Assembly: GCA_000517565.1 (NCBI GenBank)
Contig: CP007051.1
Coordinates: forward strand, 767,039 to 831,038
DNA: 64,000 nt
Origin: Desulfurella acetivorans A63
GTDB taxonomy: Bacteria; Campylobacterota_A; Desulfurellia; Desulfurellales; Desulfurellaceae
Reading direction: 5' to 3'
Numbering within the stretch: the first letter of the stretch is position 1; each line of letters begins with the position of its first letter. The notes under the pieces were generated by a model. The model was given only the letters and a program-made list of their open reading frames with translations, made no database searches and was not told the origin of the DNA. Below, piece by piece: positions 11,296 through 60,887 of this stretch. Position numbers and translations under genes: made by a program.

Positions 11296-11300
11296 ATTAA

Positions 11301-11336
11301 AAAAGCCAGACATCTATTTGTCTGGCTTTTAATTTT
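11301..11336 (+). terminator. Intra-operon terminator/attenuator between binding protein and permease genes
   Basis: Perfect 12-bp stem AAAAGCCAGACA (11301-11312) / TGTCTGGCTTTT (11319-11330) with a six-base loop, followed by AATTTTTT. Partial readthrough would give more binding protein than membrane components. Confidence 0.75.
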
Positions 11337-11352
11337 TTGAAGGGATAAGTTA

Positions 11353-15990: not shown

Positions 15991-15992
15991 TT

Positions 15993-27158: not shown

Positions 27159-28535
27159 ATGGTAAGGCTTAGATTTGCCCCCTCGCCTACCGGACATTTG
27201 CATATTGGGGGCCTAAGAACAGCGCTTTATAATTATTTATACGCCAAAAAAAATAAAGGTGCATTTGTTTTGAGAATAGAAGATACAGATCTTGAGCGCT
27301 CAAGTCAGGTATATACTGAATCAATTCTCGAAGCCTTAAAGTGGTGTGGCCTAAATTGGGATGAAATATACTATCAAAGCCAGAGAACCCATATTTACCA
27401 ATCATATATAGACAGTATGCTAAAAAATGGCACAGCCTACAAGTGTTATTGCACAAAAGAAAAACTTGAAGAGTTAAAAAAAACACAGATGGAAAAAGGT
27501 GAAAACCCGCACTATGATGGATTTTGCAAAAATATTAAAGAAGATTTAAATAAACCTTATGTTGTAAGAATAAATTTGCCACAAAAAGATGTGAGTTTTG
27601 TTGATAGTGTGCATGGAGAGCTTAAGTTTTCTTACAAAGAATTTGACGATTTTATACTACAGCGTTCTGATGGCAGTTTTATGTATAATTTTACAAATGT
27701 AGTAGATGATATAGATATGAAAATCACTCATGTTATAAGAGGAGACGACCACATAACAAACACAGCCAAGCAATTGTATATATATGAAGTTTTAAGTGCT
27801 AAAGTTCCTCAATTTGCACACATACCGATGATTTTAGGACCAGATAAAAAAAGGCTTTCAAAAAGGCATGGCGCTCAAAGTGTGCTAGAGTATAAACAAA
27901 TGGGTTTTTTGCCTCAAAGTTTACTTAATTATCTGGCTCGTCTTGGATGGTCATCTGGTGATGAAGAAATCTTTAGTATGCAAAAATTACTTGAATTATT
28001 TGACTTAGAAGGGCTTAATAAATCACCAGCTGTGTTTGATCAAAAAAAGCTTTTATGGCTAAATGGTTACTATATAAGAAACACACAAGCAGAAGAATTA
28101 TTAAATTTGTCATATGATTTTCTTAGTCAGAACTGTAAATCACATGAAAAAAAGTATTTAGAAAAAGCAATTGAAGTTATGAAACCTCGTGTTGAAACTT
28201 TAGTTGAGCTTGCACAATCAATTGAGTTTTTCTGCACAAGACCGATTTTCTATGAAGAAAAAGGTATCAAAAAGTACACCAACCAAAACACAAAGCAGAT
28301 TTTACTTGACTTTATTGACAAAATCAAAAACATTGAATTTACGCATGATAATTTTCAAGCTCTAATAAACGATCTGGCATCAAAATACAATGAAAAAGTA
28401 GTTAATGTAGCTCAAGGAATAAGGATAGCTCTAAGTGGAAAAAGTGCAGGACCTGCCCTATTTGACATGATAGAGATTATGGGTATTGATGAATCCATTT
28501 ATAGAATAAAGCAGTTTTTGGAAAAATTAAGTTGA
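27159..28535 (+). CDS. gltX: Glutamyl-tRNA synthetase
   Basis: 458-residue class I synthetase. RFAPSPTGHLHIGGLRTAL is at residues 4-22, the HVIRGDDHITNT block near 190, and the KMSKS-equivalent LSKRHGA near 237. The C-terminal anticodon-binding part is complete. Many epsilon-type bacteria carry two GltX, of which one charges tRNA-Gln; which one this is cannot be told here. It has an AAGGAG site and overlaps the following glycosyltransferase start. Confidence 0.96.
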   Translation: MVRLRFAPSPTGHLHIGGLRTALYNYLYAKKNKGAFVLRIEDTDLERSSQVYTESILEALKWCGLNWDEIYYQSQRTHIYQSYIDSMLKNGTAYKCYCTKEKLEELKKTQMEKGENPHYDGFCKNIKEDLNKPYVVRINLPQKDVSFVDSVHGELKFSYKEFDDFILQRSDGSFMYNFTNVVDDIDMKITHVIRGDDHITNTAKQLYIYEVLSAKVPQFAHIPMILGPDKKRLSKRHGAQSVLEYKQMGFLPQSLLNYLARLGWSSGDEEIFSMQKLLELFDLEGLNKSPAVFDQKKLLWLNGYYIRNTQAEELLNLSYDFLSQNCKSHEKKYLEKAIEVMKPRVETLVELAQSIEFFCTRPIFYEEKGIKKYTNQNTKQILLDFIDKIKNIEFTHDNFQALINDLASKYNEKVVNVAQGIRIALSGKSAGPALFDMIEIMGIDESIYRIKQFLEKLS

Positions 28536-29609
28536 AGGTTGCTATTGTTTTAGGCTCAATTCCTTATGGTGGTATAGAAAATCTGGTTTATGATATAGCA
28601 CTTTACTCAAAAAGTTATAATGATTTGGAATTGAAAATTATAAATATTGCTGGTGTTGGTGAAAAACTTGGTGAGTTTTATGATGCAAAAATTGATGTTT
28701 TAAATATATGTAATTCCACGAAAGATTTAAAAGTTTACAAATTATCTACTTTAAAAAGGGTAAAAAGAGTTTTTAATCAATTAAAACCGGATATAGTTCA
28801 CACAATGAACTTTAGTGCTGATTATTTTTCTAAATTGGCTTTGATTGGCTCTAAAACACCAATTATAACACATATCTACAACACAAAAATAGAAGGACAC
28901 CTTCATAGAAGACTGATTAATAGATGGCTATCTTTCAGGACCAATCTTTATATATCCGTATCAAAAGCAGTGTACGATATGGTTGAAAAATTTCACAATA
29001 TATTTAAAAGAAAGCATATTGTTTTATATAATGCCATAAATCTAAATAATTTCAAATGGATTAAAAGGACATACCCAAAAAACCACTTTAATATTGTAAC
29101 AACAGCAAGGCTTATGCCACAAAAAAATTTAGATAATTTAATGAAAGCTTTTGCCAAAATTCACAAAGAATATAGCAACACCACGCTAACTATTGTAGGT
29201 GATGGAAAAAAAAAATAATTTAGAAAATCTCGCAAAATCTTTAAAAATAAATGTATTTTTTGCTGGCTACCAAAAAGATGTATCAATTTACCTGTATAAA
29301 GCAGATTTGTTTGTTTTACCATCAATTTACGAAGGTTTTGGAAATTCACACATAGAGGCAATTGCTACAGGTTTGCCTTCAATTGTTTCAAAAAATGTAC
29401 CTAGTATTGAAGTAACAAAAGATTGCACATTGATTTGCGATACTGATGTTGAAAGTATTTACAATAATATAAAAAATATTATATCAAATCCTGCTCTTTA
29501 CGAAAAACTGTCGGATAATACAAGAAGTGTTGCTGAACAATTTGACATAAAAGTCTATATTGAAAACCTCTACAATATTTACAAAAAGTTGTTATCCAGC
29601 ACTATATGA
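28532..29609 (+). pseudogene. Glycosyltransferase family 4, split by a frameshift in an A10 run
   Basis: Two adjoining frames make one GT4 protein. The first (28532-29218, TTG start) has GSIPYGGIENLVYDIA and IVTTARLMPQKNLDNLMKAF, and breaks off at TIVGDGKKK with a stop. The second frame continues NNLENLAKSLKINVFFAGY, LFVLPSIYEGFGNSHIEAIATGLPSIVS. The switch falls in a run of ten A at 29206-29215. Nine A would restore a 358-residue protein of normal length. It may be a real broken gene, a length-variable tract, or a sequencing error; slippage on A10 could also give some full-length protein. It follows gltX by a TTGA overlap. Likely role: sugar transfer to a surface glycan. Confidence 0.82.
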
Positions 29610-30366
29610 CAATATCTATGTAACTTATGGTTTTTAGTGTTTCAATTGATGGTTTTTCTTGTTTTAGTATGATTTTTATAGGTATTTTAACATAATCTTT
29701 AAGCTCTTTTTTGCAAGAATAAAGCAATTCATACGATTTTTTATCATAAACACATAAGTTTGCCCACGTAAACTCCATTTTTGTTATATCTATTTTTATT
29801 AACCCGATGGGTGTTTCACTGAAAATTGTCAGTGTTTGCCTTAGCTTTTTTTGTTTTGTAAGTTTTTTTCTAGATTTTACGTAAATGTTGAATCTTTTAG
29901 TTTCGATATAATAAGCTATTACAATAAATACATTTTCATTTATGTGTATATTATTGTTTAATAAAGCATTTGAAATGGTTTCAAACGATGTTTTGATGTA
30001 ATTGCCAAATGTTTTTTCATCAACATTTTCAAGTGTAGATTTTGCAATATCATCTAAAATTACTTTGTTAACTAAATTGTCCATTGTCTTTAAATTTAAG
30101 TTTTCTTTTGAATCAATGTTTAAAATTTTTAGCTCAACAAAAGGCTCCAGTTTGGTTACAAGCAATTTAAGAGTGCTATCTTTTTCTAAGTTTAGGTTTG
30201 AGAAAGCTTTTATATTATTACCTTTAATATTTACAGTAGTCTGGCTATTTTCTACATTAAGCACTTTGGCATTAACGACCTCGCCTATTGTAAGCAGTTC
30301 TTGTAAATTTTTCAAGTTTATTGAGTCAATCTGGAGTTTTATTTCAGAAATATCACCAAAATTCAT
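29602..30366 (-). CDS. Possible flagellar hook-length control-like (FliK-like) protein
   Basis: 254 residues, no signal peptide, no transmembrane segment. The N-terminal pattern (GEVVNAKVLNVENSQTTVNIKGNNIKAFSNLNLEKDSTLKLLVTK) resembles the repeated beta region of FliK-like proteins. The C-terminal half (TPIGLIKIDITKMEFTWANLCVYD) faintly resembles the Flg_hook domain. FliK measures hook length and switches export specificity. No other flagellar gene is clear nearby except a FliT-like small gene 2 kb away. The match is by pattern only, so unknown function remains possible. Convergent with the glycosyltransferase, with an eight-base overlap. Confidence 0.45.
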   Translation of the reverse strand: MNFGDISEIKLQIDSINLKNLQELLTIGEVVNAKVLNVENSQTTVNIKGNNIKAFSNLNLEKDSTLKLLVTKLEPFVELKILNIDSKENLNLKTMDNLVNKVILDDIAKSTLENVDEKTFGNYIKTSFETISNALLNNNIHINENVFIVIAYYIETKRFNIYVKSRKKLTKQKKLRQTLTIFSETPIGLIKIDITKMEFTWANLCVYDKKSYELLYSCKKELKDYVKIPIKIILKQEKPSIETLKTISYIDIVI

Positions 30367-30440
30367 TTAAAAAATTATATTAAAAAACTCCTTTTTAGCA
30401 AGTGAGATTATTAATAATTTGAAATTTTTTTGAAATTTTC

Positions 30441-30469
30441 TTGACAGATAGAATGTGATATTATAAAAA
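30441..30469 (+). promoter_or_regulatory. Possible promoter for the GT39 gene
   Basis: TTGACA (30441-30446) is followed by an AT-rich -10 region, TATAAA at 15 bp or TAAAAA at 17 bp. The start codon follows about 30 bases later with no Shine-Dalgarno sequence. The remainder of the 30367-30496 gap is AT-rich with no gene. Confidence 0.45.
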
Positions 30470-30496
30470 AATTGTAATTTTTTTTAAAGTTTTTTT

Positions 30497-32113
30497 ATGT
30501 TTAAAACTAATTTTAGTGATAAAAAAAGATATTTTACTTTAATTTTGACCTATATAGTGCTAATTGTGTTGTTTTCTTTTAGAGCACTTTCTGATGACAA
30601 TGAAGGCTTATATGCAAATATAGCATTAAATATGCTTAAAACCTCAAATTTTTTAGTTCCGCACCTTGATGGACTTGTATATTTAGAGCAACCCCCGCTA
30701 TTGTACTGGTTAAGTGCTTTATCATTAAAATTATTTGGTATATCAGAATTTTCTGTAAGATTGCCAGTTATAGTATCAGGAGTTTTATTAATCATTTTTT
30801 CTTATTTTTTTGTAAAGAAATTTTTGAATAGTTTTTTTGCATCTACTTTAGCAGTAGTAATTGTAAGCCAGATTTGTTTTGATACGTCGATAAGTATGCT
30901 TATGTTTGATATGTTGCTAACTTTATTTTTTAGTCTAGCGATGTTTAGCTTTTATATTGGCTATAAGCTTAATAATAAATACTACAGATTATTCTACATA
31001 TTTTTAGCTTTGGCAATTTTTACGAAAGGGTTTGTATCGTTAGTTTTAGCTTTTTTGATTTTAACTCCATTTATAGCAATAAAAAAAATAAAACCTAAAG
31101 ATCTTCATTTAATGTTTGGTTTTTTTGTTTTTTTGATATTGTCTATCTGGTTCGTTATTGTAAGTATTAAAATTCCGTCTTTTTTTTACTATTACTTTAT
31201 AAATAATCAGGTTTTGCGTTTTTTGGGTAAAATGTATCCAAATGATACTATTAAAGGTCCTGTTTATTTCTATGTTATTAGACTGCTTGGATGTGATTTT
31301 CCATGGTCGGTGCTTTCTTTTTTTGCAATCTATAAGCTGATTAAACTAAAACTTTACAAAGATGATTTTAATTTTTATATGTTGCTATGGTTTTTTGCAA
31401 TATTTATATTTTTTTCATTATCAAGCGGTAAAGCAAATTATTACCTTTTGCCAGCAATATTCCCTATAGCTTATTTTGCTACATATACAATTTTTAATGC
31501 TAATTTGAAACCAATTTATTATGTTTTATTGGTAGCTGGTTTTTTATTGTTAAGTGGCAGTATTTTGGCTAAACTTGGTTATATCAGATTTACAGATAAT
31601 GCCTATATTGAAAAACTGCCTTTAATTGAGTTATCATTTGCTATTTTTATAATATATTTTTTTGCTTTATACAAAAAGAATTTTTTAGTAGAAAGTATCG
31701 CTTTATCAAATATTGTTATTTTAATATCTATTTATTTGTATTTTTCATTAAATGTCAATAATTTTAGTTCAAAATATGCAAGTATCTGGTTAAAAGCTAA
31801 TATGAAACCAAATACTATTTTTGTTCAGTATGGACCATTTTGGCGTACTTCTTCAAGTATATTTTATCTAGGTAGGGATAGTATTTTATTGGACGATTTT
31901 GATGATGGCGATTTATACTACGGTATGACTCTTCTAAAAAATAAAAACGAAAAATTTATAGAAAAATCCGATTTAAAAAACTTACTTAAAAATCATAATG
32001 TTGCTATAATTGGTCAGAAAAAAAGACTTATAACATACTTAAATAAACAAAAATTTAATTATAAAATTAAATATTTTGGGAATAAATTTGTAATTATGTT
32101 AAATAAAACATAA
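30497..32113 (+). CDS. Glycosyltransferase family 39 (ArnT/PMT-like) membrane protein
   Basis: 538 residues with about 11-12 transmembrane helices. The first periplasmic loop carries the PMT_2 pattern: acidic pair in LSDDNEGLYANIALNML and LEQPPLLYWLSALSLKLFG with SVRLPV, where ArnT-type enzymes have DExRYA and PPLxYW. These enzymes transfer sugars from polyprenyl phosphate to lipid A, proteins or glycans on the outer face of the inner membrane. The acceptor is unknown. The last 100 residues are soluble and lysine-rich. It lies at the upstream edge of the surface-carbohydrate region. Confidence 0.85.
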   Translation: MFKTNFSDKKRYFTLILTYIVLIVLFSFRALSDDNEGLYANIALNMLKTSNFLVPHLDGLVYLEQPPLLYWLSALSLKLFGISEFSVRLPVIVSGVLLIIFSYFFVKKFLNSFFASTLAVVIVSQICFDTSISMLMFDMLLTLFFSLAMFSFYIGYKLNNKYYRLFYIFLALAIFTKGFVSLVLAFLILTPFIAIKKIKPKDLHLMFGFFVFLILSIWFVIVSIKIPSFFYYYFINNQVLRFLGKMYPNDTIKGPVYFYVIRLLGCDFPWSVLSFFAIYKLIKLKLYKDDFNFYMLLWFFAIFIFFSLSSGKANYYLLPAIFPIAYFATYTIFNANLKPIYYVLLVAGFLLLSGSILAKLGYIRFTDNAYIEKLPLIELSFAIFIIYFFALYKKNFLVESIALSNIVILISIYLYFSLNVNNFSSKYASIWLKANMKPNTIFVQYGPFWRTSSSIFYLGRDSILLDDFDDGDLYYGMTLLKNKNEKFIEKSDLKNLLKNHNVAIIGQKKRLITYLNKQKFNYKIKYFGNKFVIMLNKT

Positions 32114-33088: not shown

Positions 33089-33955
33089 ATGGTAGAATTT
33101 ATTGCAGAGGTGTCAAGCAACCACAACAATGACTTAAATCGATGCTATGATTTTATTGAGACAGCAGCAAAAATTGGTTGTAGTGGTGTTAAGTTTCAAC
33201 TTTTTAAAATTGACCAATTATTCGACAGAAAAGCACTGGAGTGTTTTGAAGAGCTAAGAAACAGGAAAAAATGGGAGCTAAATGAAAAGTATATACCAGA
33301 AATTGCTAAATGTTGTGCGGATAATAATATAAAATTTATATGCACACCTTTTTATCTTGATGCTGTAGATATTTTAGAGCCGTATGTGAATGCGTATAAA
33401 ATTGCTTCATATGAAATTTTGTGGCAGGACCTATTATCAAAATGCGCTAAAACAAAAAAGCCAATGATCATATCTACCGGTATGGCAACACTTGATGAGG
33501 TAAAATTTGCAGTGGAAACAGTATTTGATAATCAATGCACAGATCTAACAGTTTTGCACTGTACTTCAAATTACCCTACCCTGCCGCAGGATTGCAACTT
33601 AAGTGCAATACAAACAATGAGAGAGTCATTGCCTAAAAATATCAAATTTGGATGGTCTGATCACAGTGTTAATTTTGGCGTAATACATAGGGCTATACAT
33701 AAATATGATGTTTCAATGGTAGAGTTTCATATGGATTTAGACGGCAAAGGAAAAGAGTACCAAATGGGTCACTGCTATTTACCAAATCAGGTTGAGTCTC
33801 TTATAAAAAGTGTTAAAGATGCATTTTTAGCTGATGGTGATGGCAAAAAAGAACCGCAGGATAGTGAGTTTAAAGAACGTCTTTGGAGAGCAGATCCAAT
33901 AGATGGCTTAAGGCCTCTTAGAGGTATAAGGGATAGTTTATGCAAAAGACAATAG
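33089..33955 (+). CDS. NeuB-family N-acylneuraminate synthase-like protein without the SAF domain
   Basis: 288 residues. It matches the TIM-barrel part of Neu[17 protein letters not shown] opening, [44 protein letters not shown], and GWSDHSV. NeuB, PseI and LegI condense phosphoenolpyruvate with a six-carbon amino sugar to make nine-carbon nonulosonic acids. They normally have a C-terminal SAF/antifreeze domain of about 60 residues, which is absent. The product is therefore uncertain. It overlaps the SpsF-like gene by 16 bp, forming an operon with the next ten genes. The ribosome binding site is GGAG. Confidence 0.85.
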
Positions 33956-34752
33956 CTATAATTCAGGCACGCATGTCTTCAACAAGGCTTCCAGGCAAAG
34001 TTATGCTTGATTTAGCAGGAAAACCTGTAATCTGGCATGTTTACAATAGGGCTTTGCATTCTAAATATGTAAGCGAGGTTATCGTAGCAACATCCAAAGA
34101 CAAAAGCGACGATGAGCTTGTGGAGTTTTTGAAAGCAAATTCAATGAATTATTACAGAGGGAGCCTTGATAATGTGCTTGAGCGTTTTATGGATATAATT
34201 TATGATAAAAAACCAAAGTATGTAGCCAGAATAACTGCAGATTGTCCGCACATTTGTCCTGTTTGGATAGACAATCAAATAAGTGCGCTAAGTTTGTTTG
34301 ATGCAGATGTGATTTATTGTGAAAATCTAGGTTGTGCATTTGAAGGGGCTGGCGTTATTAAAGCTGATGTACTTGATTATATTTATAAAAATACAAATGA
34401 TGCTTTAAATAAAGAACATGTAGGTGCAATCTACATTACACAAAATCCCGATAAGCTTCGCATAGTAGAAGTTTGTCCAAAAGATTCTCTTATTTTGCAA
34501 AACTGCAGATTGACATTGGATGAAAAAGAAGACTATGAGCTATACAAAATAATATATGAAAAGCTATACACTCAAAAGCATTTTATGTATTTAGAAGATA
34601 TAGTTAATCTTTTAAAATCAAACCCTGAGTTTACAAACATTAACAAAAATATTCAACACAAGCCACTAAATATTGAACTACAAACTAAATACACAAACAT
34701 ATGGAAAAACGCAAAAAAAGTAGGAAAGTTTTTCTGGCAGGATAATCCTTAA
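33940..34752 (+). CDS. Cytidylyltransferase-family protein (SpsF/CMP-NulO synthetase-like)
   Basis: 270 residues with the nucleotidyltransferase opening [29 protein letters not shown], the nucleotide-binding (R/K)LPGK motif, and a metal/base region in [14 protein letters not shown]. Spore-coat protein SpsF is the nearest named relative. By position after a NeuB-like gene, it probably activates the product as a CMP sugar. Starts inside the end of the NeuB-like gene. Its exact substrate is unknown. Confidence 0.83.
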
Positions 34753-34779
34753 AAGAATACTTTTTGCTATATTATCTGT

Positions 34780-35790
34780 ATGAAAAATGTACTGTTTAGA
34801 TGCAATGCTTCAAGGGCTATTGGTTTTGGTCATTTGGTTAGATGCTTGGCACTTGCGTGTGAATTTAAAAAAAGAAACTGTCAAATTACTTTTGCTGTAA
34901 ATAAAAATCTCAAGGCAATAAAACTCATTCAAAAAGAACAATACGCAATAATTGAAAAAAATGGAAAAGACTGCAAACAATGGCTAATTGACGCAGTTGA
35001 AAAATCCCAAGCAGATATATTGGTTTTAGATATAAGAGATGGGCTTGATAAAGAGACTCTTATTGAAATAAAACAAAAGTTTAATATTAAAATAGTAAGC
35101 ATAGATGATCCTCAAGATAAAAGGCTTGTTTGCGATTATGTTTTTTATCCGCCTGTATTTCAGGTCAGGCATCTTAGCTGGGAAGGTTTTAAAGGTAAAC
35201 TTTATTCTGGGTTTGAGTGGGTGATTTTGCGCGATCAATTTTTGCAGTACAAAAATAAACCAAAACCATTAAACAAAAAGTTAAAGATATTTGTAGCAGC
35301 AGGTGCAAGCGATCCAAAATGCATAACGCCGTTAATTGCAAAGGCTCTCAATAATTTAAATGTTGAATTTGAAGCATTAATTGTTATTGGTGCACTGTTT
35401 TCTTGCAAAAAAAATTTGGATATGATTTTAAAAAAAGCAAATTACGATTATAAAGTCTTTCAAAATGTTGACAATGTGGCTGAAATAATGCATATGTGCG
35501 ATTTTGCAATTTGTTCTTTTGGCACAAGTGCTTACGAGCTAGCCTGTGTGGGTGTGCCTGCAATTTATTTGTGTATTAGCAAAGATCATAGTTTATCGGC
35601 TTCAATGCTTGAAAAAAGAGGTTTTGCGATAAATTTGGGAGAGTATGACAAGACAGACTTAGAAGAAATAACAAAAGCTGCTTTAAAATTGTCAAAAAAT
35701 GCCGATTTAAGATATAAGATGGCTCAAACTGCTAAAGACTGTATCGACGGACTTGGTGCTTTTCGCATCACAAAGGAGGTTTTGGGGTGA
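34780..35790 (+). CDS. PseG/SpsG-like nucleotide-sugar hydrolase or glycosyltransferase
   Basis: 336 residues with the GT-B-like opening RCNASRAIGFGHLVRCLALA (PseG has the same GxGHxxRCLxLA), IVSIDDPQDKRLVCDYVFYPP, and the C-terminal nucleotide-binding block CDFAICSFGTSAYELACVGVPAIYLCISKDH. PseG removes UDP from the pseudaminic acid precursor. The neighbourhood (NeuB-like and SpsF-like genes) fits nonulosonate synthesis. Its stop overlaps the next gene's GTG start. Confidence 0.83.
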   Translation: MKNVLFRCNASRAIGFGHLVRCLALACEFKKRNCQITFAVNKNLKAIKLIQKEQYAIIEKNGKDCKQWLIDAVEKSQADILVLDIRDGLDKETLIEIKQKFNIKIVSIDDPQDKRLVCDYVFYPPVFQVRHLSWEGFKGKLYSGFEWVILRDQFLQYKNKPKPLNKKLKIFVAAGASDPKCITPLIAKALNNLNVEFEALIVIGALFSCKKNLDMILKKANYDYKVFQNVDNVAEIMHMCDFAICSFGTSAYELACVGVPAIYLCISKDHSLSASMLEKRGFAINLGEYDKTDLEEITKAALKLSKNADLRYKMAQTAKDCIDGLGAFRITKEVLG

Positions 35791-36692
35791 GTGAAAAACA
35801 ATGGCAAAATCACTATGGAGAAGTATTGGACAGTGTTAATGATTTTGATGTAATTGATTGCAAAATTTGCGGATTTAAACATATTATACCTATACCAAGT
35901 CCTCAAGAATTGCAAGATATGTATAAAAGCAAATACTATCAAAATGTAGAGTTTTTTAATGAAAGATTTTTGGAAGATAAAGATTGGTATGATTTGGTAT
36001 TTAAAGACAGATATGATAGTTTTGAAAAAATATTGGGCTATAAAGGCAATATTTTTGATATCGGCTGCGGGGGCGGATATTTTTTGCTTTATGGTAAAAA
36101 ACGCGGATGGTCTACATTAGGTTTAGACCCATCAATTCAGTCTATCAATCATTGTAAATCAATTGGTCTGGATGTAATAGAAGGATTTTTTGACGAAAAT
36201 TTATCTGAAAAATTAGCCAATAAATTTGATGTGGTACATTTAAGTGAAGTATTAGAACACATACCAGACCCTGCAAACACTATTGCCTCTATAAAAAAGG
36301 TTTTAAAGCAAGGCGGTGTTGTATGTATTGTTGTACCAAACGATTATAATCCATTTCAACTTGCTTTAAAAAAAGCTTGTAATTTTTCTCCATGGTGGGT
36401 AGCACCACCGCATCATATTAATTATTTTGATTTTAATTCACTTGAAAAACTTTTAAGAGAACAAAGTTTTGATATTGTATTAAAAGAAACATCATTTCCG
36501 ATAGATATTTTCTTACTTATGGGAGATAATTATGTGGGAAATGACAGTTTAGGCAGATTATGCCATACAAAAAGAAAAAATTTTGAAAAAAATTTACAAA
36601 ACGCTGGGTTTAATAATTTAAAAAGGGATCTTTATAAATCTTTAGCACAATTGAATATTGGCAGAGAGGTAGTAATTTATGCAAGAAAGTAA
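35787..36692 (+). CDS. Class I SAM-dependent methyltransferase
   Basis: 301 residues starting at GTG 35787. A CxxC pair near residue 24 (DCKICGFKH) and a short N-terminal segment precede the Rossmann methyltransferase domain. SAM-binding motif I is IFDIGCGGGYFLLYG near 89-103, then LGLDPS, and VVHLSEVLEHIPDP near 150. Such CxxC-plus-methyltransferase proteins often act on nucleotide sugars. In this locus it could methylate a glycan or precursor. The acceptor is unknown. It overlaps both neighbours by a few bases. Confidence 0.85.
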   Translation: MSEKQWQNHYGEVLDSVNDFDVIDCKICGFKHIIPIPSPQELQDMYKSKYYQNVEFFNERFLEDKDWYDLVFKDRYDSFEKILGYKGNIFDIGCGGGYFLLYGKKRGWSTLGLDPSIQSINHCKSIGLDVIEGFFDENLSEKLANKFDVVHLSEVLEHIPDPANTIASIKKVLKQGGVVCIVVPNDYNPFQLALKKACNFSPWWVAPPHHINYFDFNSLEKLLREQSFDIVLKETSFPIDIFLLMGDNYVGNDSLGRLCHTKRKNFEKNLQNAGFNNLKRDLYKSLAQLNIGREVVIYARK

Positions 36693-38304
36693 CACACAAG
36701 ATTTAATTTTTTCATTTAAGCCTTTAATTTCTATTGTAGTGCCCACATGGAATACACCAGAACAGTTTTTGATTGAAATGATAGAATCTGTTTTAAATCA
36801 AAGCTACACAAATTTTGAGCTTTGTATAGCTGATGCAAGTGATCAAAGTCATGTAAAAAAGATTTTAGATAATTATGCAGACAAAGATAATCGTATTAAA
36901 ATTAAATATTTAAAGAAAAACAAAGGTATAGCGCAAAATACAAACGAAGCAATTTTTATTAGCAAAGGTGATTATATAGCTTTTTTAGATCATGATGATA
37001 TATTAGCCAAAAATGCTCTGTTTGAAGTAGTAAAAACTATAAATGAAAATCAAGGTGTTGATTTTATTTATTCAGACGATGATAGAGTAACTGAAGACGG
37101 GAAAAAGTTTTTTGATCCTAAATTTAAACCTGATTTAGCCCCAGATTTTTTAAGGAGTTGTAACTATGTATGCCATTTAAGTGTAATTAAAAAAAAGCTT
37201 TTAGATAAAATTGGATATTTGAAGGAAGATTTTGAAGGCTGTCAAGACTATGAGCTTATACTCAGGGTAACAGAAAAAGCAAAAAAGATAATACACATTC
37301 CAAAAATTCTCTACCATTGGAGAGTAAGTCAAAATTCAGTTTCTCGAAATCCTCAATCTAAAATTTATGCTTACGATTCTGCCAAAAAAGTTATAAAGGA
37401 GCATTTAAATAGATTAAATCTAGATGGTGATGTTTTAGATGGTAAAGTTTTAGGTTTGTATAAAATTAACTATAAAATAACAGATAGTCCAAAAATCTCT
37501 ATAATTATACCAAACAAAGACCACAAAGATGACTTAGAAAAATGCATTAAGTCAATTATTCAAAAGTCTACATATAAAAATTATGAGATTATAATAGTAG
37601 AAAATAATTCTATAGAACAATCTATTTTTGATTACTACAGATTTTTGGAAAAAACATATTCATTTATTAAAGTAATTGTATGGGATAAACCATTTAACTA
37701 TTCAAGTATAAATAATTATGCAGTGCGATTTGCACAAGGAGAGGTTTTACTTTTTCTAAATAATGATACAGAAGTAATTACACCAAACTGGATTGAAGAA
37801 ATGCTAATGTTTGCCCAAAGAGATGATGTAGGAGCAGTTGGTGCAAAACTGCTATATCCAAACAATACGATTCAACATGCAGGAGTAATAATTGGTATAA
37901 ACGGTATAGCAGAGCATTGCTTTAAGTATTCAAATTCAGATTACACAGGTTATTTTGCAAGATTAGCTACAGTGCAGAATTTATCAGCAGTAACCGGTGC
38001 ATGCTTGATGATGAGAAAAAAAGTTTTTAATGAAATTAAAGGGTTTGACGAAGGCTATCCAGAAGCTTTGAATGATATTGATTTATGTTTAAGTTTAAGA
38101 AAAAAAGGTTATTTAGTTGTATGGACGCCTCATGCAGTTTTGTATCACTATGAATCAAAATCAAGAGGTTTTGATACTGAAGAAGAATCCATAAAGCGTT
38201 ATAATAAAGAATTGTCACTTTTGTATATGGATGCACAGTATAACTTAAAACAAAAAAATAAAAATAGCTATGATTTTAAAATAACAAGAAAATTAATAAT
38301 TTAA
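36679..38304 (+). CDS. Double-domain family 2 glycosyltransferase
   Basis: 541 residues with two GT2 domains. The first spans about 13-230 (SIVVPTWNTPEQFLIEMIESVLNQSY; DHDD near 105; FIYSDDDRV). The second spans about 270-500 (ISIIIPNKDHKDDLEKCIKSII; LLFLNNDTEV near 358; VTGACLMMRKKVFNEIKGFDEGY near 440). Both have the DxD-type metal sites of inverting enzymes. It is related to the rhamnosyl/glycosyl transferases of polysaccharide and flagellar glycosylation loci. It overlaps the methyltransferase gene by 14 bp. Cytoplasmic, probably acting on lipid-linked glycan. Confidence 0.9.
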   Translation: MQESNTQDLIFSFKPLISIVVPTWNTPEQFLIEMIESVLNQSYTNFELCIADASDQSHVKKILDNYADKDNRIKIKYLKKNKGIAQNTNEAIFISKGDYIAFLDHDDILAKNALFEVVKTINENQGVDFIYSDDDRVTEDGKKFFDPKFKPDLAPDFLRSCNYVCHLSVIKKKLLDKIGYLKEDFEGCQDYELILRVTEKAKKIIHIPKILYHWRVSQNSVSRNPQSKIYAYDSAKKVIKEHLNRLNLDGDVLDGKVLGLYKINYKITDSPKISIIIPNKDHKDDLEKCIKSIIQKSTYKNYEIIIVENNSIEQSIFDYYRFLEKTYSFIKVIVWDKPFNYSSINNYAVRFAQGEVLLFLNNDTEVITPNWIEEMLMFAQRDDVGAVGAKLLYPNNTIQHAGVIIGINGIAEHCFKYSNSDYTGYFARLATVQNLSAVTGACLMMRKKVFNEIKGFDEGYPEALNDIDLCLSLRKKGYLVVWTPHAVLYHYESKSRGFDTEEESIKRYNKELSLLYMDAQYNLKQKNKNSYDFKITRKLII

Positions 38305-38326
38305 TTAGTTGTAAATGGAGGAAACA

Positions 38327-39466
38327 ATGTGGAAAGAAAAATTAGAAGAAATTATAGAGTTAGCGGAAGAAAATTCAGATTTAATTAGTTATAAAATTAG
38401 TGAGGAGTTTATAAAAAAATATGATAACTATGTAGTTTTTGGAGCTAGTGCTGGTGGTGCTAAAACAAAAGAATTTTTAGATAAATTAGGTAAAAATGTA
38501 GTATATTTTGTTGATAATGACATAAATAAAAAAGGAAAAGAATTTTTGGGCAAAATCGTGAAACATCCAAGTGAAATATTGTTTTTTGATAACAAAGTTA
38601 TAATAGCTTCAATGTGGTGGTATGATATAAAAAAACAACTTGAGGAACATTATGGTCTTTTAGGTAATATTGAATTTTTTCTTGCCCCATTCGTATTCAT
38701 AGAAAATGGTGATATGGAGTTAAAAAACACACAAAAAAAATTTTTTGATTTATTAAAATTAAATTTTTATAATTATTTACAAATATTCGATCTATTAGAA
38801 GACGATGCATCAAGAGTTTTATATTTTAGAGTTTTGAAAGGTAGAGTATTTTACGGTAAAAATTTAATTTGGCCTCCTATGCCAAAAGTTGAATATAATC
38901 AATATTTGCATCCAAAAGTAAAACCGGAAGATAATGATATTATAGTAGATGCAGGTGCCTATATTGGCGATACAATAGAAAAAATTATAAAGCAAAACAT
39001 AAACTATAAAAAAATTTACGCATTTGAGCCAGATAATCAAAACTACAGCAAACTTATCGAAAACACAAAAAAATACGATAATATATTTTGCAACAAATTC
39101 GGACTTTGGAAACAATCTGATCAATTACATTTTATAGCTGATGGAACAGATGAAAGTACGATAACTGACAATTTTAATGAAGCAAACCAAACAATAGATG
39201 TAGTAAGTTTGGATGAATTTTTTAAAGATAAAGAAAAGCCTACATTAATAAAGATGGATATAGAGGGTGCAGAGTTAGAAGCATTATATGGTACTAAAGA
39301 AATTATAACCAAATACAAACCAAAACTTCAAATTTGCATTTACCACAAAACAGAACATTTATGGCAAATTCCAATATTGCTCAAAGATTGGGTAAAAGAA
39401 TATAAACTCTATATTGGGCATCATAGTTTTGATTTTCGTGAGACTGTGCTTTATGTAAAGGTATAA
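38327..39466 (+). CDS. FkbM-family methyltransferase
   Basis: 379 residues from ATG 38327, five bases after GGAGG; an in-frame ATG at 38315 overlaps that site. Residues 30-110 resemble a nucleotide-binding domain (VVFGASAGGAKTKEFLDKLGKNVVYFVDND). From about 205 comes the FkbM methyltransferase domain: IIVDAGAYIGDTIEKI as SAM motif I, IYAFEPDNQNYSKL, and the IKMDIEGAELEALYG signature. FkbM enzymes methylate sugar or polyketide hydroxyls. Its position next to the ATP-grasp and IolB-like genes suggests glycan decoration. Confidence 0.88.
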   Translation: MWKEKLEEIIELAEENSDLISYKISEEFIKKYDNYVVFGASAGGAKTKEFLDKLGKNVVYFVDNDINKKGKEFLGKIVKHPSEILFFDNKVIIASMWWYDIKKQLEEHYGLLGNIEFFLAPFVFIENGDMELKNTQKKFFDLLKLNFYNYLQIFDLLEDDASRVLYFRVLKGRVFYGKNLIWPPMPKVEYNQYLHPKVKPEDNDIIVDAGAYIGDTIEKIIKQNINYKKIYAFEPDNQNYSKLIENTKKYDNIFCNKFGLWKQSDQLHFIADGTDESTITDNFNEANQTIDVVSLDEFFKDKEKPTLIKMDIEGAELEALYGTKEIITKYKPKLQICIYHKTEHLWQIPILLKDWVKEYKLYIGHHSFDFRETVLYVKV

Positions 39467-39467
39467 T

Positions 39468-40676
39468 ATGCGATCAATAATCATACTTGGTGCAGGCATT
39501 ATGCAGATACCTGCAATAAAAACAGCAAAAGAATTAGGTTTGTTTGTAATTGCAGTTGATAGGGATAAAAATGCAATTGGATTTGAATATTGCGACCTTG
39601 CTTTAGACATTGACACAAAAGATATAGATTCGCTTTTGAGATTTGCAGTTAATAATAAATATAAATATAATATTTCAGGCGTATTTGCAGCGGCTGACAA
39701 TGCAGTTAGTGCAGCAGCTATTAATGAACAACTAAACTTGATTGGCGTAAATAGTTTTTCGGCCAGGTATTCCAATAATAAAAGTTTAAGCAAGCAACTA
39801 TGGTTAAAAAATAATGTGCCAACTCCTTTAGCAAAAGAAGTAAAAACTATTGATGAAGCAAAAAATGCTATAGATAAAATTGGTTTACCATGCATGGTAA
39901 AAGCAGTTGACAGTTCTGCTTCAAGAGGGACACAAAAGCTGGAAAGAATCGAAGATTTAGAGGCTGCATTGTATGAGGCATTCATGCAGTCTACAACGCA
40001 TACCGCTCTCATAGAAGAGTATGTGGAAGGGGAAGAATACAGCGTAGAAACTGTCATTTATAATGGCAAACAATACAGGTTTGGTATTGCAAAAAGAGAA
40101 TACGATATGTTGCCTTTACCTATAGAAACAGGACATGTTAATCCTGCATTTTTACCAAAAAAAACAGAAGAAGAAATGTATGAAGTGGTAAAAAATGCTG
40201 CATTAGCATTAAAAATCAACAATGCGCCTGCAAAAGCTGATATGATCATTAGAAAAAAAGATAATAAGATTATGATATTAGAAATGGCAGCCAGGCTTTC
40301 TGGTGGTTTCCATTCACAATATACCACGCCTTTATCAAGTGGAATGGAACCTATAAAGTTTGTCATACAGTTGACAATTGGTGATATTCCAGATCCTGAA
40401 ACATATACTCCAAACAAAAAGCGTGTAAGCTTATGCAGGGCTATTTTTCCAAAACCTGGTTTGGTAAAAAAAATTGAAGGCGTGGAGGAAGCGCTAAAAA
40501 TTAAAAATGTTAATCAAATTTTTTTAACTATCAAAGAAGGCGAAACTATTTCTGAGTATAAAAATTGTGCTCATAGAGTTTGTTATGTAATAACAAGCGG
40601 TGATACTTATGAGCAAGCTAATTATGCATTTGAGTTAGCAAAAAAAACTATAAAGATTTATACATGGAGTTTTTGA
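39468..40676 (+). CDS. ATP-grasp domain ligase (CarB-like fold)
   Basis: 402 residues. An N-terminal pre-ATP-grasp Rossmann region (IILGAGIMQIPAIKTAKELGLFVIAVDRDKNAIGFE, residues 3-38) is followed by the ATP-grasp domain. That domain has PCMVKAVDSSASRGTQ near 142-158, IEEYVEGEEYSVETV near 184, and EMAARLSGGFHSQYTTPLSSG near 272. The relatives ligate a carboxylate to an amine, thiol or other nucleophile with ATP. Similar proteins occur in polysaccharide loci, where they may add amino acids to sugars. The substrate is unknown. Two bases separate it from the FkbM-family stop, and one base from the next ATG. Confidence 0.85.
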   Translation: MRSIIILGAGIMQIPAIKTAKELGLFVIAVDRDKNAIGFEYCDLALDIDTKDIDSLLRFAVNNKYKYNISGVFAAADNAVSAAAINEQLNLIGVNSFSARYSNNKSLSKQLWLKNNVPTPLAKEVKTIDEAKNAIDKIGLPCMVKAVDSSASRGTQKLERIEDLEAALYEAFMQSTTHTALIEEYVEGEEYSVETVIYNGKQYRFGIAKREYDMLPLPIETGHVNPAFLPKKTEEEMYEVVKNAALALKINNAPAKADMIIRKKDNKIMILEMAARLSGGFHSQYTTPLSSGMEPIKFVIQLTIGDIPDPETYTPNKKRVSLCRAIFPKPGLVKKIEGVEEALKIKNVNQIFLTIKEGETISEYKNCAHRVCYVITSGDTYEQANYAFELAKKTIKIYTWSF

Positions 40677-40677
40677 T

Positions 40678-41421
40678 ATGCAACTTAAAGTCAGGCAATC
40701 TTATGCAAGTGATGGGCCTGTAAAAAATATCTGGCTATCACATTTAAATTTTTCAAAACAAATTGAAATTTTTGAAACCAATTTTGAGGTAGCCATTGTT
40801 TTATTATCAGGAGAGTTAAGCGTTTTTTTTGAAAAGGAATTTATATTAAATAGAAAAAATGTTTTTGAAGAAAAAGCAAGCGCTATATACATTCCGAGAA
40901 ACACAAGAGTTTTGCTAAATCCAAAATCATTATGCGAAGTAGCAATTTGTAAAACAAAAATTGATAAAGACTCAAAATTTTCTGTGATCTATCCAGACCA
41001 GATAAAAGAACATATAAGAGGCAGCCTCGGCTATAGAAGAAAAGTATTTGATATTTTAGACGAAGACAGTCCTTCTGTAAAATTAGTTTTAGGTGAAACT
41101 ATAAATTTTAAAGGAGAGTGGTCAAGTTTTCCTCCACATAAACACGATCAAAATAGCAATTCTGAAGTAAAAATGGAAGAAGTATATTTATTTAAACTAA
41201 ACCCATCTGATGGTTTTGGTATGCAAAGAATTTACACAGAAGATAAATCGCTTGATAAATGCGTGGTGGTGGAAAATAACGATATTGTATTGATACCAAA
41301 AGGATACCACCCGGTTTGCTCCATGCCTGGATACGAGCTTTATTATTTATGGGTTTTGGTTGGAGATTCAAAAAAATTAATGCCAAATACGCAAAGTAAA
41401 TACAGATGGCTCTTAAAGTAA
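40678..41421 (+). CDS. KduI/IolB-family sugar-acid isomerase
   Basis: 247 residues, a double-cupin of the 5-deoxyglucuronate isomerase / 5-keto-4-deoxyuronate isomerase type. The diagnostic stretch is in the C-terminal half: GETINFKGEWSSFPPHKHDQ, EEVYLFKLNPSDGFGMQRIYT, and VLIPKGYHPVCSMPGYELYYLWV. These contain the metal-binding His, His, Glu and His. IolB acts in inositol breakdown, and KduI interconverts uronates and ketouronates. No iol genes are nearby. It overlaps the next, reductase-like gene by 16 bp, so the two products probably act in sequence. Confidence 0.87.
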   Translation: MQLKVRQSYASDGPVKNIWLSHLNFSKQIEIFETNFEVAIVLLSGELSVFFEKEFILNRKNVFEEKASAIYIPRNTRVLLNPKSLCEVAICKTKIDKDSKFSVIYPDQIKEHIRGSLGYRRKVFDILDEDSPSVKLVLGETINFKGEWSSFPPHKHDQNSNSEVKMEEVYLFKLNPSDGFGMQRIYTEDKSLDKCVVVENNDIVLIPKGYHPVCSMPGYELYYLWVLVGDSKKLMPNTQSKYRWLLK

Positions 41422-42500
41422 CTTTTTTACAATTTGGCACAGGTAAATTTATAAAAGGCTATTTTGATTGGATGCTATCAAAAACGGATATTAATTCAGA
41501 AGTTTTTGCAGTTTATTTTACGCCTAAAGTACAATATACTAACTTAAAAAATAATAAATGCATATTTAATGTTACACTAAAAGATATAAATTATACCCAA
41601 GCTGACAATGTAAGCGTGATAAAAGATCTTTTTTGGGCAAAAGATACAAAAGTTATATTTGAATTGGCAAACAGTATAGATTTTATTGTTTCAAATACAA
41701 CAGAAAAAGGTATTTTGGATAAACGAGGTTACCCTTTGCTTTTAACATCGTTTTTATACAAAAAATTTGAGCTTGATAATAATAAAATGCTTGTTATTAT
41801 ACCGTTAGAGCTTATTCCCAATAACGGAGAGTTTTTAAAACAAACAATTTTGAAAATAATTGATGAGAATTATAACGATAGTTTTAAATTTTGGGTGTTA
41901 AGGACATGTGAGTTTGTAAATACAATTGTTGATTGCATTGTAACAAAAGAAAGCAATTTAAATATAGAAAGAGAAAGGTATTATGCATTTTACGTAAGCA
42001 AGAATAGTTTATTAGAAAAAATATTTAACAATAAGGGTTTGAATGTTTATTTTACAAAAGATATAGACAAAATAGCCCAAATAAAGATAAAGGTATTAAA
42101 CGGTATACATACATTTCTGGTGCTAACAGCATATATGGAAGGTAAAAATACAGTTTATGAATGTTTTTTAGATAAACACTATATAAACTTGATTAATAAG
42201 ATATTTTATGATGAGATATTTCCTACTATAAACTATGATAAAAATTTTGTAGAAGATTTTTATTTGACTGTGATTAATAGATTTAAAAACCCATACATTG
42301 AGCATAATTTAAAAGATATTGCTTTGAATACTTATGAAAAATTTTATCAGCGTATCGCAACAACTATTGTGGATTATGAAAAATTATACAATCAAAAACC
42401 AAAAATACTTATGAAAGCGTTTGATAATCTAAAAAAGATGTATCCAGATAGGGTAAAAAGTTTCGAAAACTATATTGAGAATTTTAAACATGAAAATTAA
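41406..42500 (+). CDS. Mannitol dehydrogenase family protein (uronate reductase-like)
   Basis: 364 residues. The N-terminal Rossmann-like part has FLQFGTGKFIKGYFDWM (the family has GxGxFHRxH). FIVSNTTEKG near residue 92 and RTCEFVNTIVDCIV near 170 match tagaturonate/fructuronate reductase (UxaB/UxuB). The catalytic block is KIKVLNGIHTFL near 230-240 (the family has KxxxxNxxH). It would reduce a keto sugar acid with NADH. Named reductases are 480-500 residues, so this is a shortened version lacking part of the insert and C-terminus. Overlaps the isomerase-like gene and the hydrolase-like gene. Confidence 0.78.
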   Translation: MALKVTFLQFGTGKFIKGYFDWMLSKTDINSEVFAVYFTPKVQYTNLKNNKCIFNVTLKDINYTQADNVSVIKDLFWAKDTKVIFELANSIDFIVSNTTEKGILDKRGYPLLLTSFLYKKFELDNNKMLVIIPLELIPNNGEFLKQTILKIIDENYNDSFKFWVLRTCEFVNTIVDCIVTKESNLNIERERYYAFYVSKNSLLEKIFNNKGLNVYFTKDIDKIAQIKIKVLNGIHTFLVLTAYMEGKNTVYECFLDKHYINLINKIFYDEIFPTINYDKNFVEDFYLTVINRFKNPYIEHNLKDIALNTYEKFYQRIATTIVDYEKLYNQKPKILMKAFDNLKKMYPDRVKSFENYIENFKHEN

Positions 42501-44415
42501 TTCTTTAACAAAGATTAGCAATAAACCAAAATTTTACCTTATATTTCATTGTAATCTGGCGTTTTCATCAATTGATGAAGATCAGCTAAATGAAGTTATT
42601 GCTAAAAGCTATTTTCCATTGCTTGAAATAGTTAAGTCAACTAATACAAAAACCGGTATCGAGCTCAGTGGCTATACACTTGAAAAACTTTCTAAGCTTG
42701 CACCATTGTTTATAGATGAGCTAAAAATTCTTTCAAAAAGCGGTTTGGTTGAAGTTATTGCAAGTGGTTATCAGCAAATCATAGGTCCAATTGTGCCATA
42801 TAAAGTAAATGTAAAAAATCAAGAGCTTGGTTTGAAGGTTTATGAGAATTTTTTGGGAATCAAGCCTAGGGTTGCTTTTTTAAACGAACAGGTATTTTCA
42901 AAATCTATGGTAGATATCTATAAAGAATTCTATGATGCAATTTGTATGGAGTGGAACAACCCTTACTCTATCAACGCACATTACTGGCAAGAATCGTATG
43001 GTTTTGCACCTGCAATAGCAAAAGGGATAAAAACCCAAATACCTATTATCTGGACCAATTCTATCCTTTTTCAGCAATTTCAGCGTACAGCTACCTCTCA
43101 AAATACACTAGAAAATTATTTATCCATGATTGAGCGCTTTATAAAAAAAGGCTATCTTTGCTTGCCAATATATTCTTCAGATTTAGAAGTTTTTAATTTT
43201 AGGCCAGGACGTTTTAATACAGAAAACAATATCAATGCAAACGAATGGAAAAATATAGAAAAGATTTTTTTGGCTTTAAAAAATTACGGAGAATTTTTAC
43301 TGCCTTGTGAAGTCTTGCAATTTGCAAATAAAAAAATAGCTCTTGATTTGAGTAACCCTGTATATCCTATAATTGTTAAAAAACAGCCTAAATACTCATT
43401 AAGTAGATGGAGCGTAGCTGGTCTTGGTGGGCACTACATTAATACCTTATGTCATAATTGTTATGATAGTACGAAAAACAAAACTGACAATGAATCATGG
43501 AAGAATTTATTGAAATTTTGGGGAAGCGATTATAGAACACACACTACTTTAAATAAATGGCAGGCTGCGCTCAACTATTTGAATAAGTTTAATAACAATT
43601 TTAAAATAGAGATAAAAAATGCCACAGATTTTGATTTTGATAAAAATTCAGGGAAAATTTTATTAAAAGGCAAACAATACAGTGCTACATTCCTAACTAA
43701 AAAAGGTCTTGCGCTTGAAAGTTTATATAAAAATGAAAAAAAACTTTTATTTGGTAGCGTTAATCATGGGGAACTGGATTATATATCTCACGGTGCTGAT
43801 TACTATACAGGCACAACTACAATAGAATCATGCTACTTTGGCAGGATTGCAAATTTAAACGAAACTTCAAATATAGAAGTTAAAAAAACAGGTGAGGATA
43901 AATTTTTCATAAAAGGAATAAATTATTTATCTGACCTGGCGGTTGAAGAAAGAATATGGCTCGTTGATTTTGCTTTTAAGAAAGTATCAATTTATGATAC
44001 TCTAAAACTTTCAAAACCCACAAAAGCATCTATTAGAATGGCTACATTTACGCTTTTGCCTATTAAAAAAAATATTAAATTCTGGTATTCTTGCAAAAAC
44101 GGTGGTCGCTATAATGAAAAATTTTTTATAGAAAATAATATGCCTATTTTGCATCACCTGCCAGTATCAATATTGCAAAGCTCAAATGGCGGACTTGGGG
44201 TTACAGATGGTTATTTATCTTTTGGGATTAGAAATTCTTTAATAGTCAAGCTATTTATTGATAAAACTTTCGGAAGCCCGTTGGTGCTGCTTCAAAATAG
44301 TCCTGATCACGATAGGTATTTAACAAGGGTATTTTTTAGCGTACAAGAATTTGATGATACGCTGAAGCCTACAATAGTAGAATTTAAGGTAGGATATAGC
44401 ATTTTTTTTGATTAG
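42490..44415 (+). CDS. GH57/GH38-like glycoside hydrolase-related protein
   Basis: 641 residues starting at ATG 42490, which overlaps the reductase stop. Residues 10-260 follow the GH57 barrel pattern: FYLIFHCNLAFSSIDEDQ in place of the HFHQP strand, GIELSGYTLEKL, LSKSGLVEVIASGYQQIIGPIVP, and KPRVAFLNEQVFS with the expected catalytic Glu. DLEVFNFRPGRF carries the likely catalytic Asp. The C-terminal 300 residues are beta-rich (GWSVAGLGGHYINTL-like, DYISHGADYYTGTTTIES, ITVYD-type strands), as in GH57/GH38 galactose-mutarotase-like domains. No signal peptide. It may trim an intracellular glycan; the linkage is unknown. Confidence 0.78.
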   Translation: MKINSLTKISNKPKFYLIFHCNLAFSSIDEDQLNEVIAKSYFPLLEIVKSTNTKTGIELSGYTLEKLSKLAPLFIDELKILSKSGLVEVIASGYQQIIGPIVPYKVNVKNQELGLKVYENFLGIKPRVAFLNEQVFSKSMVDIYKEFYDAICMEWNNPYSINAHYWQESYGFAPAIAKGIKTQIPIIWTNSILFQQFQRTATSQNTLENYLSMIERFIKKGYLCLPIYSSDLEVFNFRPGRFNTENNINANEWKNIEKIFLALKNYGEFLLPCEVLQFANKKIALDLSNPVYPIIVKKQPKYSLSRWSVAGLGGHYINTLCHNCYDSTKNKTDNESWKNLLKFWGSDYRTHTTLNKWQAALNYLNKFNNNFKIEIKNATDFDFDKNSGKILLKGKQYSATFLTKKGLALESLYKNEKKLLFGSVNHGELDYISHGADYYTGTTTIESCYFGRIANLNETSNIEVKKTGEDKFFIKGINYLSDLAVEERIWLVDFAFKKVSIYDTLKLSKPTKASIRMATFTLLPIKKNIKFWYSCKNGGRYNEKFFIENNMPILHHLPVSILQSSNGGLGVTDGYLSFGIRNSLIVKLFIDKTFGSPLVLLQNSPDHDRYLTRVFFSVQEFDDTLKPTIVEFKVGYSIFFD

Positions 44416-60103: not shown

Positions 60104-60883
60104 GTGTCAATTTGGTTAAGGCATTATGGTAATGTGCCAAAAAGCCTGAATTATCCACAAATAAGTTTGTATGAGTCTATCAGACAGTCCTGTTTAAAAT
60201 ATGAAGACCAGATTGCTTTTACCTATTTTGGCAATACTATAACTTACGTTAAATTGCTTTACTACTAGGTGCTATAGCAAGCTTTATTCATCCTTTATCC
60301 AGTGAAGAAGAAATAGCAAATTATTTAAATATCAGTAATTCTGAGTTTGCTATAACACTTGATTTATTTGTAAATAAAGTGTTATCTATAAAAGATAAAA
60401 CGCCGTTAAAAAACATTATGCAAACAAGTATTTCTACATTTATGCCGTTTTTTTAAAAGCCGCCTACAATGTTTTCAAAAGACCCAAAAAATTGTAGATT
60501 TAACTTTTGAAAGTGCAATTAAACACTCAAATATTTTAATTGATATAAAACCACAACAAAAAGCTTTTGATACGGCAGTTATTTTGTATAGCGGAGGTAC
60601 AACAGGAAAACCAAAAGGTATTGAGTTATCAAATTTCAATTTGATTGCAAATGGAACTCAAATAAGCGCCTGGGCAAATTTAAATCAAGAAGATAAAATT
60701 TTAGCGATACTGCCTATTTTTCACGGTTTTGGTCAATACGATATTGCGCGTATAATTCAAAAGAAAGGCATCCCTACCCTTTTTATTGAAGCCGATATGA
60801 CAGATGAGCGCAAATTTGCACAGGCTCAGGTGGAAAACCGTATTGATTCATTTATGGAAGTTTTGAGTCAAATAAAGGGCTAA
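60104..60883 (+). pseudogene. Decayed long-chain acyl-CoA ligase fused to the tail of a 2-hydroxyacyl-CoA dehydratase subunit
   Basis: A GTG start (60104) with AAAGGGGG opens an acyl-CoA ligase N-terminus (SIWLRHYGNVPKSLNYPQISLY). A gap and stop come at ITYVKLL, then the frame changes to LLGAIASFIHPLSSEEEIANYL. Further breaks at a T7 run (about 60448) and an A run (about 60486) lead into ILYSGGTTGKPKGIELSNFNLIANG and LPIFHGFG. The text then becomes QYDIARIIQKKGIPTLFIEADMTDERKF, AQAQVENRIDSFMEVL, which is the C-terminus of an HgdB/BcrB-type dehydratase subunit. This looks like a deletion joining two neighbouring genes. Not expected to give an active ligase. Confidence 0.82.
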
Positions 60884-60887
60884 AAAA

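Follow-up and report, generated by a model that had tools for sequence, protein, structure and literature searches.

A probable nonulosonic acid operon of Desulfurella acetivorans in which an IolB-UxaB-like enzyme pair may supply an acid to an ATP-grasp ligase

Flagellin of Shewanella oneidensis carries a glycan of a mono-N-acetyl pseudaminic-type sugar and a nitrogen-free group of 236-264 Da, and this glycan requires the genes sfmABCDE (PMC3765264). These encode a short NeuB, a thiamine pyrophosphate (TPP) enzyme, a short-chain dehydrogenase/reductase (SDR), a methyltransferase, and an ATP-grasp ligase; gene loss shifts the flagellin mass, and the species has been reported to be without a clear PseH (PMC3765264). 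Other described systems that can be compared are the canonical PseB-C-H-G-I-F pathway of Campylobacter and Helicobacter, and the spsE-spsF-spsG genes for legionaminic acid in Bacillus subtilis (PMC7439481). Flagellin modification of the Sfm type and the enzyme families concerned are already known. The subject here is a related operon in Desulfurella acetivorans A63, ending in genes for an IolB/KduI-family isomerase, a UxaB-like reductase, and a GH57-like protein, and located in a window of 64,000 nucleotides (contig CP007051.1, positions 767,039 to 831,038), the whole stretch of DNA that was analyzed. In the open-licence literature, no description was found of an IolB-UxaB cassette, of a GH57-like component, or of a cassette difference between species at one locus, and no paper placed IolB or a tagaturonate reductase in such loci.

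The operon comprises ten genes on the plus strand (33089-44415), adjoining genes overlapping or lying at most 28 bases apart. Its last three genes encode IolB (40678..41421, 247 aa), the short UxaB-like, NAD-dependent reductase (41406..42500, 364 aa), and the GH57-like protein (42490..44415, 641 aa). As the original prediction had stated, these are three overlapping genes at 40678-44415. All are on the plus strand, and their open reading frames (ORFs) are intact, that of the GH57-like protein spanning 42475-44415, with the ATG at 42490 being the more likely start. Domain scans also bore out that they continue an operon of ATP-grasp, FkbM, GT2, and NeuB types, and that the cluster contains no dehydratase, 2-keto-3-deoxygluconate (KDG) kinase, or inositol gene.

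The best explanation of the whole, held tentatively and a little short of an even call, is an operon for a pseudaminic-type nonulosonic acid (NulO), likely a flagellin sugar, in which a hexonic-type acid made by IolB and the UxaB-like enzyme is coupled to a free amine by the ATP-grasp ligase. PseB and PseC would form UDP-4-amino-4,6-dideoxy-AltNAc, with no convincing PseH to acetylate the new amine. IolB would isomerize a uronic (or deoxyuronic) acid to a ketose, which the UxaB-like enzyme would reduce to a hexonic acid (of altronate or mannonate type, or a deoxy form). The ATP-grasp ligase would then couple the carboxylate of this acid to the free amine that PseH otherwise acetylates, while the methyltransferase could O-methylate the acid; PseG, the short NeuB, and SpsF would then yield the CMP-NulO. 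In other clusters, the acid-making step may be carried out by a TPP enzyme with an SDR, or by a Gfo/Idh oxidoreductase. The gene content, the conserved catalytic residues, the occurrence of PseB, PseC, PseG, and Maf without a convincing PseH, and a content that differs between species at one and the same operon position are direct observations. We infer the substrates, the acid product, the amide coupling, and any part played by GH57, and the delivery of an IolB-UxaB acid to the ATP-grasp step is possible, although we would sooner doubt it than assert it. It had been predicted that the pair makes an unusual sugar that is attached by the ATP-grasp ligase or enters the glycan; a sugar acid coupled by the ligase is still the best reading, given the retained residues, the single operon, and the lack of anything suggesting catabolism, and the glycan can now be specified as a pseudaminic-type NulO, probably on flagellin.

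The pathway context, a NulO that is probably flagellar, is the firmer part and is considered likely. Like the canonical pathway, the genome encodes PseB (536 bits, cut-off 408) and PseC (441 bits, cut-off 423.5), both elsewhere than in the operon, and the PseG/SpsG-type UDP-sugar hydrolase of the operon (34780..35790) exceeds its family cut-off (TIGR03590, 154.9 bits versus 153.55). Unlike the canonical pathway, it offers no convincing PseH (only a 20.5-bit match within a 773-aa frame in this genome, cut-off 93.1), and the operon adds ATP-grasp, IolB, UxaB-like, and GH57-like genes. The first gene (33089..33955) encodes a short, PseI/SfmA-like NeuB-family synthase (288 aa; PF03102, 1.7e-56), which has no SAF domain match and does not reach the equivalog cut-off for either NeuB or PseI (166.8 versus 340 for PseI); homologues of 284-308 aa occur in the clusters of relatives. 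It is followed by an SpsF-type cytidylyltransferase (33940..34752; PF02348, 1.3e-27), probably for CMP activation. A single NeuB homologue and a single Maf are encoded in the genome, and the NeuB of the operon is, therefore, the only candidate NulO synthase for Maf. In two genomes of the Hippea group (G003 and G016), genes for PseB, PseC, flagellin, and Maf lie after the cluster. We infer flagellin to be the target in the D. acetivorans genome as well.

The divergence of this NeuB, which lacks SAF and misses both cut-offs, together with the variety of cassettes beside it, would suit an alternative in which IolB and UxaB make a sugar for condensation with phosphoenolpyruvate by NeuB itself, so that the product would be a non-canonical ulosonic acid instead of an N-acylated pseudaminic acid. 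This is quite unlikely: with PseG above its cut-off and PseB and PseC present, NeuB has a pseudaminic-type substrate at its disposal, quite different cassettes are accompanied by the same short NeuB (51-66% identity), and a hexonate is no aldose acceptor.

In gene content, there is a resemblance to the Shewanella oneidensis sfmABCDE system, which likewise has a short NeuB (290 aa), an S-adenosylmethionine (SAM)-dependent methyltransferase, an ATP-grasp_4 ligase, PseB and PseC encoded elsewhere, Maf, and no clear PseH. The differences are that the TPP enzyme and SDR found there are absent from this operon, which has IolB and the UxaB-like reductase, and that no GH57-like, SpsF, or PseG gene is described there. 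With spsE-spsF-spsG of B. subtilis, the operon shares adjoining genes of NeuB, cytidylyltransferase, and UDP-sugar hydrolase types, but that system uses an acetyltransferase, SpsD, its description (PMC7439481) mentions no ATP-grasp, and IolB, UxaB-like, and GH57-like proteins are not part of the pathway described. As computed from the published ion formulas, the nitrogen-free Shewanella group corresponds to C9H16O7 plus zero to two methyls. This fits the acyl group of C9H18O8, i.e., an amide-linked saturated hexahydroxy C9 acid, a reading that belongs to this analysis and not to PMC3765264; the formula could also be that of an O-linked unit.

The UxaB enzyme of hexuronate catabolism reduces tagaturonate. 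The short reductase has the domains Mannitol_dh (PF01232) and Mannitol_dh_C (PF08125), and its best NCBIfam subfamily is tagaturonate reductase (PRK03643, NF002969), although it fails the cut-off (211.6 bits versus 359; a canonical member scores 713.9). Only profile positions 17-404 of 482 are covered, leaving a short C-terminus, and Mannitol_dh_C is matched over 1-114 of 190, with the same truncation in the sister species (1-108 of 190). Residues K227, N232, and H235 are kept in an alignment with 4im7, 1lj8, and canonical proteins, and an SNTTE-GI stretch is common to the reductase and canonical tagaturonate reductases (loci L069-L071; L068, L072, and L073 were left out because of wrong frames). 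A single-sequence AlphaFold model of the reductase was unusable, with a predicted local distance difference test (pLDDT) score of 33, so its catalytic residues were read from sequence alignment only. IolB (PF04962, 2.7e-68) scores 215.1 bits against TIGR04378 (5-deoxyglucuronate isomerase, cut-off 205), the sister-species copy scoring 217. Its metal ligands, of the form HxH...E...H, are kept as H154, H156, E167 or E168, and H211 in an alignment with the solved IolB-like protein 2qjv. Isomerase and reductase are, thus, predicted to retain their catalytic residues, the absence of which had been named in advance as a sign against the prediction.

In hexuronate catabolism, KduI or UxaC isomerizes a uronate before UxaB reduces the ketouronate with NADH, and KduI facilitates galacturonate and glucuronate conversion in Escherichia coli (PMC3578941). 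The pair could, likewise, isomerize and then reduce, but here the dehydratase and KDG kinase are missing, the C-terminal domain of the reductase is largely lacking, and the context is biosynthetic. That IolB and UxaB are catabolic genes, serving inositol or hexuronate use, which ended up in the operon without playing any part in the glycan, is a highly improbable explanation. An IolB score above the 5-deoxyglucuronate isomerase cut-off is in its favor; against it stand an operon without dehydratase, kinase, or inositol gene, the overlap of the genes within a glycan operon, their purifying selection in two species, and a truncated reductase far under the UxaB cut-off. No iol gene was found in the operon or among its neighbors, the rest of the genome not having been searched for iol genes.

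A second species of the genus has the complete operon in synteny, with identities of 63-82%. Between the two species, dN/dS (the ratio of nonsynonymous to synonymous substitution rates) is 0.14 for IolB, 0.15 for the reductase, and 0.11 for the GH57-like gene, compared with 0.09 for the adjoining pyruvate kinase; these values are rough, synonymous sites being near saturation. Because of the synteny and the low dN/dS, the association of the three genes is more than chance. Of the three species in the genus, only two were found to have the IolB-UxaB pair. A genome-contig scan with the reductase sequence did not find the trio elsewhere, 386 diverse genomes contained only canonical UxaB-type or other mannitol-dehydrogenase-family proteins and no short UxaB outside the genus, and tblastn on all fetched loci found IolB in two species only, with no IolB or UxaB-like gene in clusters outside the genus. 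The trio had been expected to recur beside ATP-grasp and NeuB-like genes; it was not found outside the genus in these searches and is not a unit, since the GH57-like protein recurs in 19 loci of the genome-contig scan, and in several phyla, without IolB or UxaB.

This GH57-like protein is a marker of a broader cluster found in several phyla, not of the trio. It is present in 11 of the 25 genomes of the phylum, as well as on contigs titled Desulfospira, deltaproteobacteria, SAR86, Euryarchaeota, Cyanobacteria, Falkowbacteria, Neomarinimicrobiota, and Anaerolineae, and most of its loci are clusters with some of the short NeuB, PseG/SpsF-type, methyltransferase, and ATP-grasp genes. Clusters lacking IolB-UxaB have the protein as well, so it is not tied specifically to the IolB-UxaB acid. 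PF03065 is matched in the N-terminal half alone (48.6 bits, cut-off 21.2). In an alignment with the 4-alpha-glucanotransferase 1k1w, residues E133 and D231 occupy the positions of its catalytic pair, E123 and D214; both are invariant in 16 divergent sequences. The structure model, a confident one (pLDDT 86, predicted template modelling score 0.88), matches GH57 4-alpha-glucanotransferase and GH38 alpha-mannosidases; the best E-value is to the GH57 structure 1k1x, yet the template modelling scores are larger for GH38 mannosidases. The cyanobacterial copies in L044, L046, and L047 (Roseofilum and a relative) have no NulO genes nearby, so the protein also occurs outside such clusters.

Clusters of relatives hold other genes beside ATP-grasp and GH57: a split transketolase (TktN and TktC) with an SDR, a TPP enzyme resembling 1-deoxyxylulose-5-phosphate synthase (DXS) or acetolactate synthase (ALS) with an SDR, or a Gfo/Idh oxidoreductase. 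The latter, of the Gfo/Idh/MocA type, takes the place of the TPP-SDR pair in two clusters of the order (L029:9118-10353 and L030:8401-9627), the L030 copy being weakly IolG-like (51.5 bits versus a cut-off of 355). Some GH57 clusters (e.g., L038 and L123) have no such gene within the stretch read. In the third species of the genus (G002), DNA identity is 96.5% over the first part of the operon, which runs from NeuB to within GT2, and 97.5% at the GH57 end. Its GH57 gene, which is 97% identical, is directly preceded by a different ATP-grasp with 48% identity to the Hippea one; in a tree, this ATP-grasp groups with the GH57-adjacent ATP-grasps of relatives. Neither IolB nor UxaB was found in a search of this genome, whose assembly breaks inside the operon region; the single transketolase-N gene there is a separate copy, which the other species of the genus have too. 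From sequence comparison, these observations would fit an exchange of the middle segment within the genus, with both operon ends conserved. The ATP-grasp carboxylate-amine ligase of the window (39468..40676; PF13535, with LAL_C2, PF18603) is of a second type in the tree, which in several other clusters sits upstream of the GH57-adjacent type. Both types occur in the same NulO-type clusters in L028, L049, L051, and L053. Two ATP-grasp types per cluster might correspond to two separate acylations of a diamino sugar.

Several of these results weigh against the acid-coupling explanation. Elsewhere, GH57 is preceded by an ATP-grasp of another type than that of the window, so the two cassettes may serve different steps, and IolB barely exceeds the 5-deoxyglucuronate isomerase cut-off, which would mean a different acid. 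A mutual exclusion of PseH and GH57 proved weak: a convincing PseH is missing from 10 of the 11 genomes of the phylum that bear GH57, but several GH57-free genomes also have none, and G014 has both. No gene was identified as the source of free uronate. This last point, along with a loss of the C-terminal region that could open the active site of the reductase, speaks for a different arrangement, namely, that IolB and UxaB act on an acid or amino sugar already bound to a glycan precursor or nucleotide. Such a substrate is very unlikely, given that known members of both families act on small free acids.

The glycan is also open to another reading, as none of flagellin, Maf, PseB, and PseC is encoded next to the operon in this genome. 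Its GT2 gene (36679..38304, a glycosyltransferase with two GT2 domains; PF00535, 1.6e-48, two stretches) and FkbM-type methyltransferase (38315..39466; PF05050, 2.1e-15; TIGR01444 over cut-off) could signal a NulO-containing polysaccharide or lipid-linked glycan instead of a flagellin sugar, to which IolB-UxaB would supply a decorating hexonate or ketose. The absence of any adjoining flagellar gene, and the mannosyl/arabinosyl-transferase-like membrane protein and GT4 ORFs just upstream (28532-32113), also favor this glycan. It is nevertheless unlikely, because the operon has the only NeuB of a Maf-encoding genome and the Hippea clusters adjoin flagellin and Maf.

The remaining gene of the operon encodes a SAM-dependent methyltransferase (35787..36692; PF13489, 1.1e-25). 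Promoter and terminator scans gave chance-level results only. Downstream, pyruvate kinase, aldolase, and phosphoglycerate mutase, identified by reading the sequence, are on the opposite strand and unrelated. Upstream, a GT4-type glycosyltransferase appears to be split into two ORFs that overlap but differ in frame (28532-29218 and 29199-29609), possibly through a frameshift or sequencing error. Elsewhere in the window, 15094-18398 encodes a trans-4-hydroxy-L-proline dehydratase (1243 bits, cut-off 1100) and a radical SAM activase (379 bits, short of the 425 cut-off), in the vicinity of what looks like an amino-acid ABC transporter (10537-12739) and of a GntR-like regulator; this region is likely a hydroxyproline-use locus. 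An acyl-CoA ligase-like fragment, followed by a BcrAD/BadFG-type ATPase, occurs at 60584-61655.

Substituents of flagellar NulO can be of unknown origin; the nitrogen-free Shewanella group of 236-264 Da was reported in 2013 without a stated pathway. The analysis suggests a rule, in which an ATP-grasp ligase and an exchangeable acid-making cassette stand in place of PseH, and which predicts measurable masses. In its widest form, which is doubtful though conceivable, a NulO cluster family spanning phyla would replace the PseH acetyl with operon-made acids attached by ATP-grasp, drawing on interchangeable cassettes (transketolase-, DXS-, or ALS-type enzyme with SDR, Gfo/Idh, or IolB with UxaB), and species would diversify their flagellar sugar by cassette exchange. 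A GH57/GH38-superfamily protein is placed in nonulosonic acid loci of several phyla, and two uronate-type enzymes gain a biosynthetic setting; if the wide form is true, a uronate isomerase/reductase pair would, in IolB-UxaB, have been put to biosynthetic use.

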